Below, piece after piece: positions 1,703-5,579 of a stretch of 36,884 bases of DNA (positions within the stretch are counted from its first letter, which is position 1; each line of letters starts with the position of its first letter). Below the pieces are notes generated by a model. That model was given only the letters and a program-made list of their open reading frames with translations, did not search any database and was not told the origin of the DNA. A program made the position numbers and the translations under genes. Origin of the DNA: an uncultured Bacteroidia bacterium (GTDB taxonomy: Bacteria; Bacteroidota; Bacteroidia; Bacteroidales; UBA932). Location: assembly GCA_902789435.1 (NCBI GenBank), contig CADAOA010000020.1, positions 1-36,884 of the forward strand, written 5' to 3'.

Positions 1703-2197
1703 CTATTTACCTGTCATCGTGTATGACATGTAGCTAGAGTGCCCTATTTCATCATAGGTCTGGGCATCGTAAGCGACAAGGCGTACATAATAAGTGTGCT
1801 TGCCCTTCTTAGGGTGAAGATCAGAGCTATACATCCAGATGATTTTGTTATTGAGCACAAATTTGTCTGTCTTGTTCTTGTTTTTGAAGTTCTTTACCTT
1901 CTGGACAGGTAAACGCAAACGTCCCTCACCTCCTTCATCGTCATCCAGATACTCGTGTAGAGTGCCTTTGGGACTTTCAATTTCCATATAAATCTGGACA
2001 TCATGCTTCTTCATTCCCGTAAAATCGGCTGAGAAATGGCATACCATTGTATTCCTTCCGTTTTTGTCCTTCACGTTAAGTTCAAGACGGCAGTTCTTGA
2101 AAGTAGCTTTCTGCCCGTAAACTACATTGGGCTTCAAAGAGGAGAACAGAAATGCCATGATCATCATGACAACAGTAACTCTAAAGGTGCTTTTCAT
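1703..2197 (-). CDS. Secreted protein of unknown function
   Basis: A 164-residue protein. The start chosen is the ATG at 2197, which gives a clean signal peptide (about 28 residues, cleavage after VYG). The frame stays open further upstream, but that part reads through the tRNA-Cys gene and its terminator, so it is rejected. The mature part is rich in charged residues and beta strand, with a DDDEGGEGR stretch near the middle and a C-terminal half that resembles an immunoglobulin-like fold (for example HTYYVRLVAYD). I do not recognise the family. The gene lies just downstream of the tRNA-Cys terminator, so it probably has its own promoter; the only candidate is a weak box TATTTTTA at 2236-2229. 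Confidence 0.65.
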   Translation of the reverse strand: MKSTFRVTVVMMIMAFLFSSLKPNVVYGQKATFKNCRLELNVKDKNGRNTMVCHFSADFTGMKKHDVQIYMEIESPKGTLHEYLDDDEGGEGRLRLPVQKVKNFKNKNKTDKFVLNNKIIWMYSSDLHPKKGKHTYYVRLVAYDAQTYDEIGHSSYMSYTMTGK

Positions 2198-2211
2198 CTT
2201 TGTTTTGTTTT

Positions 2212-3501
2212 TTAATTGTTTTGGACAGTAAAAATAGGAAAAAGATTTAAAAGAAAACCCCTTCCGAAAATTTCTGGAAGGGGTTTGAGGTACCAAGCAG
2301 AATCGAACTGCTGTACACGGTTTTGCAGACCGTTGCCTAGCCACTCGGCCATGGTACCGGATTGGGAATGCAAATATAGCAAGTCAGATGGTTGAGTCAT
2401 TCTTGCGATTATCCTGACCTTGCGCTTTGCTATTGTCGCGGCGGAGAAGACAGCCAGGGCAAAGTCGTTTTTGTCGACAACCTGAGAGCAGCTGAAGGTG
2501 AAGACGATGCCGCCTGGGGCAACCTTTTCTATGGCCATGGAGTTAAGTTTCCTGTAGGCTCTCAGGGCGTTTGGCTTGGCGCTAAGATGCTTGGCAAATG
2601 CAGGAGGGTCAACGATCATAAGGTCGTATCTGCCCTTTTCGACAGTTCTGAGGTATTCTATGGCATCGGTGCAGACACAGTCGCAGTTTTGGGTGAATCC
2701 GTTGAGCTTGAGGTTGTTTTTGCAAGCGTCAATGGCAAGCTGGGAACTGTCTACAGAGCAGCATTCCACTGCTCCGCCACTCAAGGCGTAAACGGAAAAG
2801 CCGCCGGTGTAGCAGAAGAGGTTGAGAACTCTCCTGCCGTCTGAAAGCCGCCCGACCATGTTGCGGTTATCCCTCTGGTCCAGGAAGAAACCGGTCTTCT
2901 GGCCCTTTTCCCAGTCCACGAAGAACTTGCAGCCGTTTTCCTTAACCTCGATGCCGGTGGCATTGAAACCGTCTTTTTTGTAGAGATAGTCATCATCCCC
3001 CACGAAAGTGCCTATAGGAGTGGATTTGGAATAGATGGCGTCTATGTTGTCGTTGAAAACTGTCCTGATAGCCTCAGCGATTTCTTTTCTGCTGGCATAC
3101 ATTCCGGCGGAATGAGTCTGCATGACGGCCACTTTGCCGTAGATGTCCACAATCAAGCCGGGGAGATAGTCCCCTTCCCCGTGGACCAGACGGAAGCAGT
3201 CCGTCATACCCTCGTTAAGAGAGACGAGAGTCTTTAATCGCTGAATATAAGCTGCCTGAATCCTGTTCTGCCAGAAATAGGCGTCAATGGCGGAATCGCC
3301 CCAGACAAGCATCCTGACCATAATGGAGCCTTTCTGGAAATGGCCTTTACCCAAAAGAGAACCATCTTTTGAAACCACCTCAACCAAATCGCCGTTCTGG
3401 GGATCACCCTCAATCTTTGCAACAGCACCGGAGAAGACCCATGGATGAAATCGCTGAAGACTCTGGTCCTTGCCTTTTTTCAGAATGACTTTCTTTTCCA
3501 T
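2212..3501 (-). CDS. RlmI-like 23S rRNA (cytosine-5)-methyltransferase, abnormal 3' end
   Basis: N-terminal PUA domain (residues 1-80), then a Rossmann methyltransferase: SAM-binding NLFCYTGGFS (227-236), VDPPAF (297-302) and the catalytic cysteine in SCS (Cys338). This pattern marks the RlmI/class I rRNA m5C methyltransferase group. The family normally ends soon after a TQPADHP-like segment with a strand containing EYLKGL. Here homology stops at TQPSD (residues 369-373). The frame then continues with no stop through the tRNA-Cys promoter, the whole tRNA (from residue 382) and its terminator, to a stop at 2212. The last beta strand is therefore missing. The start ATG overlaps the stop of the exonuclease gene (TGATG), so translation is probably coupled. 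The gene may be functional with an odd tail, decaying, or affected by an assembly deletion. Confidence 0.8.
   Translation of the reverse strand: MEKKVILKKGKDQSLQRFHPWVFSGAVAKIEGDPQNGDLVEVVSKDGSLLGKGHFQKGSIMVRMLVWGDSAIDAYFWQNRIQAAYIQRLKTLVSLNEGMTDCFRLVHGEGDYLPGLIVDIYGKVAVMQTHSAGMYASRKEIAEAIRTVFNDNIDAIYSKSTPIGTFVGDDDYLYKKDGFNATGIEVKENGCKFFVDWEKGQKTGFFLDQRDNRNMVGRLSDGRRVLNLFCYTGGFSVYALSGGAVECCSVDSSQLAIDACKNNLKLNGFTQNCDCVCTDAIEYLRTVEKGRYDLMIVDPPAFAKHLSAKPNALRAYRKLNSMAIEKVAPGGIVFTFSCSQVVDKNDFALAVFSAATIAKRKVRIIARMTQPSDLLYLHSQSGTMAEWLGNGLQNRVQQFDSAWYLKPLPEIFGRGFLLNLFPIFTVQNN
2255..2287 (-). terminator. Intrinsic terminator of tRNA-Cys
   Basis: An 11-bp inverted repeat (AAACCCCTTCC with its complement) around a short loop is followed on the - strand by a T-rich run. 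It starts one base after the discriminator base of tRNA-Cys. Confidence 0.8.
2289..2359 (-). tRNA. tRNA-Cys (anticodon GCA)
   Basis: The - strand folds into a complete 71-base cloverleaf: acceptor stem GGTACCA with TGGTACC; D arm GCC/GGC; anticodon stem ACGGT/ACCGT with loop CTGCAAA (anticodon GCA); T arm AGCAG/CTGCT with loop TTCGATT. The discriminator base is U, as expected for tRNA-Cys. The CCA end is not encoded. The gene sits inside the 3' part of the methyltransferase reading frame and has its own promoter and terminator. Confidence 0.96.
2372..2379 (-). promoter_or_regulatory. -7 promoter box of tRNA-Cys
   Basis: TATATTTG on the - strand matches TAnnTTTG exactly and ends 12 bases before the tRNA 5' end. 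An ATG (instead of TTG) lies 19 bases upstream. The box overlaps the end of the methyltransferase coding frame. Confidence 0.6.
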
Positions 3502-4082
3502 CAGACAGACATAAGTTTAATATACATTTCCCTGCAGACCCAAGCATCTATGGCAGCGTATTTGAGCTGGGCGTCGGATAACTTGCTGCTTTCCCAATTG
3601 GAAAGTTGCTGAGACTTGGAGACTCTGATACCCAGAATAATAGCACTCATTTTGCGAACACTCTTTTCCTCTATGCCGAATTTCTCGGCGATGGTCTGGA
3701 GGTCTGCAAAGCCCCCGGCCTCGAACCGTGAGTACCAATTCAGGCCATGGATGTCGTCCCTTACTGCAGCTCCAACCTTGATAATGGAAGGGTCTGTCAG
3801 GATGGAGACCAGTTCCTGAGGCATACCAAGCTGCTGGAGACGGAATATATAGGCATTTTCTCCGGTGGAAAGCTGAAGCAGGGCTATGTGGTTCTTGGGA
3901 GCCCTGGCCACAAAGCAAGGCTTGGTTTCAGTGTCAAAACCAATCACCTTGGCTTCCCTCAGTGTCTTGATTGCATTGCGGAAAACCTGGTCTTCCCTTT
4001 CCACCACGGTAATCTCCCCGTGGAATTCAGCCAGTGGCAACTTCTCTATCTGCTCAGTTGCAATATGTTGAAGAAATGCCAT
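3501..4082 (-). CDS. 3'-5' exonuclease domain protein (RNase D-like, DEDD family)
   Basis: A 193-residue single-domain exonuclease. The Exo I motif FDTET (residues 49-53, Asp50 and Glu52), an Exo II segment AVRDDIHGL and the Exo III YAAIDAW (Tyr and Asp) give a complete DEDDy active site. The family includes RNase D and the exonuclease domain of WRN helicase. Without an HRDC domain, the substrate could be DNA or structured RNA. It starts at 4082, directly after the racemase stop codon (4083-4085), and its own stop overlaps the methyltransferase start (TGATG). It is therefore part of the operon purM, racemase homologue, exonuclease, methyltransferase. A role in RNA processing would suit the rRNA methyltransferase and tRNA beside it, but that is inference. 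Confidence 0.85.
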   Translation of the reverse strand: MAFLQHIATEQIEKLPLAEFHGEITVVEREDQVFRNAIKTLREAKVIGFDTETKPCFVARAPKNHIALLQLSTGENAYIFRLQQLGMPQELVSILTDPSIIKVGAAVRDDIHGLNWYSRFEAGGFADLQTIAEKFGIEEKSVRKMSAIILGIRVSKSQQLSNWESSKLSDAQLKYAAIDAWVCREMYIKLMSV

Positions 4083-5579
4083 TTATTTGATCTTTTCTTT
4101 GATTTTCTCGTAGGTGTAAGGCACGAGTTGCTGGATTCGTTTCAGATTGTCAGGATTAAGGTTATCCTTGCTGAAAGGAACCACTACAGTGGTAACGTCC
4201 TCGCTGCCAACGGCCCTTCCGTACTTGAATGCGTGGGTCAGCCCTCCGTTTTCCTCCAGATTCTTGCTCGGAACTCCGTATGAAGGAACGGAAATGAAAG
4301 CGTCAACCTGTCCCATCCTGGTTCTGAGAGCCATAAGCCTGTCCTCCCTGAGAGTCTTGCAGCACTCGATAGCTGTAAACACAGCCGGATCGATGAAAGT
4401 GAAATCATCGGCGATAAGATGGGCATACATAAGCTTACCGTTTTTGCGATAGGCCTTGATCTCGCTCAATGTCTTTTTCAGGGTATCCATAAGGAACGGA
4501 TAGTGAGTACATCCCAGAATGATGCTCTTCAGAGGAGCCTGTTCCTGAGACTGGCGAAGCTGCTCAAAAAGACTAACCAGATGGAACCTGGCATAATTGG
4601 CGGCTGAATTAAGCTGGAATTCAGTGAATTTCTTATTGACCTTCTTGTAAAGGATGGCATTGTCGGCATAGCAGAATTTGTAAACATCCAGAAGATCCTC
4701 CTTTATGTCAGCCGGTCCGTCGCCAAGCTTCGGCCCCCTATAGGTGTCCCTAGGTGCGGTGAGGGAAAGATCTACAAAATCTTTTTCCAGGTCGACAGCC
4801 TCGGCGAATCCAGCACCCTTCTGGTTGATAACCTGGATGAAGCCGTCATAAGCCCTTTCTTTCTTGACCTGCATTATGGTACGGCGGTAAGCGTCTGAAT
4901 CAATGGTGCCTATGGTTGCCATAACTCCCACGGCCAGAGAATCCCTCTTGCGACTGGAAATGATGTCGTCGAATGCTGCGTTAACTCCGGCGTTGATCAC
5001 TCCGATAACCTTTACTCCGGTCCCTGAAAGAGTCAGCAGATTCTTGATATCGTTGAGTCCATATGCGGTTGCGGTGTTGCAGGCTACCACTATGATCTTG
5101 CACCTTTGTTTCTGGCCTTTGGCGTACTTGTCGCTGCTGCGCTCATAGTATTTGTCGCCGAGGAGGAAAAGAGCGTCCTTTACGGCAAGCTCCCTCAGAT
5201 AATCCGCCTTACCTTCGGAAGAATATGTACCATACGGCATATTAGCTTGGTCTGCAAGATACTGGAAATCTTCACCACGGAAATCAGGAACTCCGTCAGC
5301 CTCCAGTTCCCCGTCAATGTTGTTCATATAGTCTGACTTGAGGATAACCTCCAGAACGGTGAGTCCGCCGGTTCCTGAATCAAACACTCCGATCGGCAGT
5401 TGGCTGCGCTCTTCATGTGCAGGGAACTTGTCAAAGTCGGCATACCAAATACTTGAAGGGTCACCGATAGCCTTGTCTGTTACAGGAATGGTTTCCACTA
5501 CTGGTTTTTTATCGTCTTTGCAAGAAGACAACGAAATAGTTGCCAGTGCAATTATAAGGAAAGGGAAAAATCGTTTCAT
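4083..5579 (-). CDS. Lipoprotein homologue of glutamate racemase (Asp/Glu racemase fold)
   Basis: The body is clearly of the glutamate/aspartate racemase family: GVFDSGTGGLTV (Asp67, Ser68), ACNTATA (Cys167) and LGCTHYPF (Cys357, His359) supply both catalytic cysteines and the usual acid and histidine. Two things are odd. The N-terminus from the ATG at 5579 is a lipoprotein signal peptide with lipobox LSSC (Cys20) followed by Asp-Asp, so the protein should be exported and lipid anchored. It is also 498 residues, against about 270 for MurI; roughly 60 residues precede the fold and about 80 extra residues separate the two cysteines. The frame opens 13 codons earlier, but the lipoprotein start is preferred. 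It follows purM after 22 bases. The substrate is unknown; D-amino acids in the periplasm are an inference. Confidence 0.82.
   Translation of the reverse strand: MKRFFPFLIIALATISLSSCKDDKKPVVETIPVTDKAIGDPSSIWYADFDKFPAHEERSQLPIGVFDSGTGGLTVLEVILKSDYMNNIDGELEADGVPDFRGEDFQYLADQANMPYGTYSSEGKADYLRELAVKDALFLLGDKYYERSSDKYAKGQKQRCKIIVVACNTATAYGLNDIKNLLTLSGTGVKVIGVINAGVNAAFDDIISSRKRDSLAVGVMATIGTIDSDAYRRTIMQVKKERAYDGFIQVINQKGAGFAEAVDLEKDFVDLSLTAPRDTYRGPKLGDGPADIKEDLLDVYKFCYADNAILYKKVNKKFTEFQLNSAANYARFHLVSLFEQLRQSQEQAPLKSIILGCTHYPFLMDTLKKTLSEIKAYRKNGKLMYAHLIADDFTFIDPAVFTAIECCKTLREDRLMALRTRMGQVDAFISVPSYGVPSKNLEENGGLTHAFKYGRAVGSEDVTTVVVPFSKDNLNPDNLKRIQQLVPYTYEKIKEKIK

Follow-up and report, generated by a model that had tools for sequence, protein, structure and literature searches.

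Deletions at gene ends that run into a neighbouring gene give nonstop or extended products, and these are handled by tmRNA-SmpB. Proteins of the RlmI (YccW) family are 23S rRNA m5C1962 methyltransferases. The account of E. coli given in PMC11894153 describes deletion of most ribosomal methyltransferases as having no significant phenotype; it records ~45S particles in rlmI cells upon kanamycin, and also compares 50S abundance with the wild type without antibiotic. Promoter motifs of Bacteroides fragilis are presented in PMC7366714 as TTTG at -33 and TAnnTTTG at -7, and in its treatment of Flavobacterium johnsoniae the -33 motif was not identified. The window analyzed here is a contiguous stretch of 36,884 nucleotides. 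It encodes a protein that resembles the RlmI family over residues 3-373, with PUA-like N-terminal and SAM domains. Unlike the family, it is without the last 21 residues bearing the EYLKGL strand (the C-terminal segment YLKG[LF] and the last strand are missing), and its frame continues into a tRNA-Cys unit.

The methyltransferase frame and the tRNA-Cys unit

The minus-strand open reading frame 3501-2212 encodes 429 amino acids, with an ATG start at 3501 and a TAA stop at 2214-2212. Its parts and the adjoining features are collected in Table 1.

Table 1. Features at the methyltransferase/tRNA-Cys junction in window coordinates.
Feature	Position	Strand	Basis
Upstream gene, 3'-5' exonuclease domain PF01612, overlaps methyltransferase start	3501..4082	-	ORF, Pfam
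RlmI-like class I SAM methyltransferase, residues 1-373, end TQPSD	2383..3501	-	ORF, Pfam, NCBIfam, 3c0k similarity
Deletion junction, 76 bp absent, without junction microhomology	2382..2383	-	Alignment with L003, L032, L033, L004
In-frame run-on, 56 codons from promoter, tRNA and terminator plus TAA	2212..2382	-	ORF/sequence
Bacteroidota -7-type box TATATTTG of the tRNA-Cys promoter	2378-2371	-	TAnnTTTG consensus (PMC7366714)
tRNA-Cys, anticodon GCA, CCA not encoded	2287/2288-2358	-	tRNA call, cloverleaf
Intrinsic-terminator-like hairpin directly after the tRNA	about 2286-2255	-	Folding z-score
164-aa gene following the tRNA unit, without a Pfam match at E 0.001	1703..2197	-	ORF, Pfam

Two Pfam domains, PF17785 (PUA_3) followed by PF10672 (Methyltrans_SAM), scored above their cut-offs. 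RlmI was the best NCBIfam model (query 2-373 covered), at 243.9 bits against an equivalog cut-off of 712, so the enzyme is called RlmI-like and its exact target base is left unassigned. Similarity to E. coli RlmI (3c0k) spans query 3-373, and in both the 3c0k and the NCBIfam comparison the family similarity breaks off at residue 373 (TQPSD). A preliminary description of this DNA had recognized the similarity up to TQPSD and placed the end of the D codon at 2384; the correct position is 2383. Its reading of the frame through promoter, tRNA-Cys and terminator to a stop at 2212 was confirmed on the sequence, and the tail of about 56 residues that it gave was counted as 56.

The features of a tRNA-Cys gene are present, namely the GCA cloverleaf, the promoter -7 box and the terminator, the last being a strong hairpin followed by T's (z -3.74 for 2250-2290). 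The window shares its tRNA-Cys sequence with the loci L003, L032, L033 and L004 of related genomes. One tRNA-Cys copy was found by DNA similarity in the window's own assembly, which is 90.36% complete. An encoded CCA varies within the genus; it is present in L003, L033, L004 and L005 and not in the window (2285-2289). The missing CCA was considered as a second defect of the locus and was ruled out, as L032, L034 and L035 likewise do not encode it. A CCA-adding-type enzyme domain is present in the own genome, so the lack of an encoded CCA should be harmless.

The exonuclease and methyltransferase genes probably form one operon. The site right after the tRNA-Cys terminator (window about 2200-2250) varies in the genus: in the window the 164-aa gene follows at once, genome G097 has a type ISP restriction-modification protein (PF18135) within about 7.3 kb of sequence at this point (L144:2260-9549), and genome G139 a YhcG/DUF1016 nuclease-type protein within about 3.6 kb (L145:9354-12957). 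The site is a possible insertion hotspot. Because G097 and G139 carry kilobases of other genes between the terminator and the next shared gene, a link between mobile insertion and the changed methyltransferase end was considered. It was rejected, since nothing connects an excision with the 76-bp deletion described below; in the stretch of G097, the 20 largest direct-repeat families (41 in all) are short imperfect pairs.

The missing 76 bp

The nearest relative found was L003 (genome G097), whose protein is 95% identical to that of the window. In L003 the gene ends with TQPSD followed by HPVDICHPEGEYLKGLVLYVE and a stop, and the tRNA-Cys lies 34 bp further on. The window sequence equals that of L003 minus exactly 76 bp (L003 2614-2689), with flanks matching on both sides, which supports the deletion offered by the preliminary description as one of its two explanations. 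The missing 76 bp fall between TCTGAC and TTGCTATATTTG. L032 and L033 likewise carry 76 bp at this site and L004 carries 75 bp. In the alignment of window and L003, no base is repeated at the junction.

The lost stretch contains the codons HPVDICHPEGEYLKGLVLYVE, TAA, and a TTG located 19 bases ahead of the -7 box. As the comparison shows, a deletion of 76 bp would have removed the last 21 codons, the stop codon and the upstream element of the tRNA-Cys promoter, and the remaining methyltransferase frame would thereby have been joined to the tRNA-Cys unit. At the position 19 nt upstream of the -7 box the window has ATG, versus TTG in L003, L032 and L033. Across 50 tRNA-Cys upstream regions of relatives, TTG was present 18-20 bases ahead of TAnnTTTG in 42 and missing in 8. 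Since the -33 motif was not identified in F. johnsoniae, losing it need not silence the tRNA-Cys, which would presumably be transcribed from its own weakened promoter plus read-through from the operon.

That the frame stays open after the junction is unsurprising, because two of the three frames through promoter and tRNA lack stops. From base 2382 to the tRNA end this holds for the window and for all seven relatives tested (8/8 sequences); with the 76 further bases added, the relatives show none to two stop-free frames. Of the three frames over window 2382-2212, that of the methyltransferase has its sole stop at the very end, another contains two stops and the remaining one is stop-free. The stop-free frame belongs to the gene downstream, whose ORF (1703-2344) extends back across most of the tRNA.

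Searches were made for the junction and for the lost sequence. With up to two mismatches allowed, the junction pattern was found in 1 of 39 genomes of the genus, the window's own. An exact search found it in none of the viral contigs, and the plasmid collection had no match to window 2100-3600. In the own assembly, searched at E 0.01, nothing matched bases 1-58 of the lost stretch. The remaining 18 bases fall inside partial matches to two other promoter-like places there, one of them a tRNA-Gly promoter. As 31 bases at the L003 tRNA-Cys promoter match (97%) a stretch ahead of this tRNA-Gly, another tRNA promoter was weighed as a donor for gene conversion; the idea was rejected because the sequence upstream of the tRNA-Gly match does not resemble the left flank of the junction.

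The gap could also be an error of metagenome assembly or consensus, the organism itself having a normal gene end. The own genome is indeed an incomplete assembly (95 contigs, 90.36% complete, 2.06% contamination), and the junction is confined to it among the 39 searched. An overlap-based assembler, however, needs shared sequence to join two pieces. No microhomology exists at the junction, so that one or more reads would be expected to span it. In addition, C-termini were compared with those of G097 for all frames of at least 100 aa on both strands. The C-terminus differed in 18 of 43 rows (12 plus-strand and 6 minus-strand, the methyltransferase included), most of which were short or antisense; among the minus-strand frames of at least 300 aa with a counterpart in G097, 10 of 11 agreed at the C-terminus within 2 residues, the methyltransferase being the exception. 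An assembly error is thus considered unlikely. The arrangement is very probably a lineage-specific 76-bp deletion by which the gene end was lost and the frame fused to the tRNA-Cys unit, leaving a probably impaired enzyme and a gene that is probably heading for decay.

Conservation of the remaining gene and of gene ends in relatives

Between the window and L003, residues 151-373 differ by 21 bases and 4 residues (dN 0.0077, dS 0.1265), and the remaining 373 residues as a whole show no clear sign of decay at the sequence level. Such a conserved core would mean either that the deletion is recent or that the protein is still in use.

Changes on the window and L003 branches were counted by parsimony as synonymous and non-synonymous. 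With L032 as outgroup, the counts were 27 and 16 on the window branch and 10 and 6 on the L003 branch; with L032 and L033, 12 and 10 versus 5 and 4; with L032, L033 and L004, 4 and 7 versus 3 and 1. Taken alone, the three-outgroup counts, which are small numbers, would point to a degree of relaxation along the window branch. Relaxed selection was nevertheless not accepted as their explanation. Thirteen of the 16 non-synonymous window-branch changes (outgroup L032) fall in alignment columns 39-96, where identity to L003 per 100-base bin drops to 79-93%, versus 95-100% in bins 2300-2900. Clustering of changes where local identity is lower is read as recombination and not as decay, and it suggests homologous recombination around the methyltransferase locus. 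Along window 2250-4200, identity to L003 shifts sharply: 100-base bins reach 95-100% over the 3' half of the methyltransferase gene, against 66-87% for the exonuclease gene upstream of it.

At 143 loci the 3' end was read; these comprise the window's own, 15 duplicates (no different, around the gene end, from loci already counted) and 127 distinct relatives. One of the latter, L082, was left out, its 3' end being cut by a contig end. The other 126, whose 3' ends are readable, without exception carry the normal YLKG[LF] segment followed by a stop, and EGEYLKGL is invariant among the 18 relatives of alignment A2. A tRNA-Cys lies downstream on the same strand in at least 52 of the 126, within 70 bp in 24 and never less than 25 bp from the stop. 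For loci of the genus, the corresponding values are at least 27 of 37 and, within 70 bp of the stop, 18 of 37. These neighbour counts are lower bounds, because the stretches reach only about 0.1-3 kb past the stop. Methyltransferase and tRNA-Cys are thus frequent neighbours, with a stop codon between them in each case seen. Genome G138 has two full methyltransferase genes (contigs C55 and C10; L033 and L089), each with its own downstream tRNA-Cys; they are 89% and 76% identical to the window protein, and the bin perhaps mixes two species.

According to the second explanation of the preliminary description, the fusion links methyltransferase output to tRNA processing: as a selected device, cleavage of tRNA-Cys by RNase P would produce a nonstop mRNA, and enzyme output would follow the processing of the tRNA. 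The close neighbourhood of the two genes in much of the genus, the conserved methyltransferase core and the presence of genes for both tmRNA (137 bits) and SmpB (180.7 bits) in the own genome would agree with such coupling. The arrangement itself, however, was in none of the relatives examined, in which a stop codon separates both genes, and the deleted segment holds many invariant residues. The alignment with relatives that had been proposed as a check shows the junction not to be conserved, and with it the link is left unsupported. Relatives with a normal gene end and a stop ahead of the tRNA had been named beforehand as evidence against the whole proposal; they speak against the linkage and leave the deletion unaffected. 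A coupling device is accordingly judged very improbable, and an ordinary deletion that damaged the gene is the likeliest reading, ahead of a new means of control.

Consequences for protein and message

In the model of the relative's protein, the last strand occupies residues 386-393. Its block 391-394 has a mean pLDDT of 95, and block 381-390, which includes a loop, has a mean of 66 and lies outside the listed segments below 50. The 21 lost residues include this last modelled strand. For the run-on protein of the window, the model gives a pLDDT below 50 at residues 375-421, and a weak strand at 421-427 is located in a block (421-429) with a mean of 43; the tail in this model is biased, since the underlying alignment spread the last residues of relatives along it. 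From these models we infer that a run-on enzyme would be unstable or inactive, while strand 421-427 might conceivably replace the lost strand in part. As a sub-case of the deletion, the run-on protein could be functional, with part of the tail standing in for the lost strand. The low substitution rate in the core and the weak modelled strand would be in line with this, but the low pLDDT of the tail, its origin from promoter, tRNA and terminator sequence read in frame, and the invariance of the lost EGEYLKGL make it improbable. More doubtful still is a working enzyme for which RNase P chooses between a run-on and a tmRNA-tagged product, with tRNA-Cys derived partly from the operon transcript.

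Two fates of the message can be envisaged under the preferred reading, a damaging deletion. Translation of the whole mRNA would give a protein without the conserved last strand and with a tail of tRNA-derived residues. Excision of the tRNA by RNase P would leave an mRNA without a stop, the product of which would probably be tagged by tmRNA-SmpB. With tmRNA and SmpB present, a nonstop message could be rescued, and both nonstop mRNA and ribosome rescue are plausible consequences of the fusion. By either route the enzyme would probably be impaired and the gene heading for decay.

Losing the methyltransferase seems tolerable, since a strong match is lacking in many family genomes. Some methyltransferase match is present in 117 of 119 family genomes, the own included; 24 of the 119 are without a strong one (best E above 1e-10, or none), among them all eight of genus g21. 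The genomes of g21 are 86-99% complete, whereas the other 16 include incomplete assemblies, and part of the 24 may therefore reflect missing data. Within the genus of the window, all 39 genomes have some match, which is only weak in G144 and G146.

Taken alone, the locus is of little importance, illustrating a recent deletion at a gene end next to a tRNA gene. It also calls for caution with automatic annotation, which may list a 429-aa methyltransferase with tRNA sequence for a tail. Should RNA data demonstrate it, the locus would offer a natural instance in which tRNA processing creates a nonstop message. Among the matches listed in the literature, there was no case of a tRNA gene overlapping a coding end with a nonstop mRNA; one may be in print. 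The lost stop codon and the entry of the frame into a neighbouring gene are shared with ordinary gene-end deletions. What sets this locus apart is the nature of the neighbour: with a tRNA there, the nonstop end may be made by RNase P.
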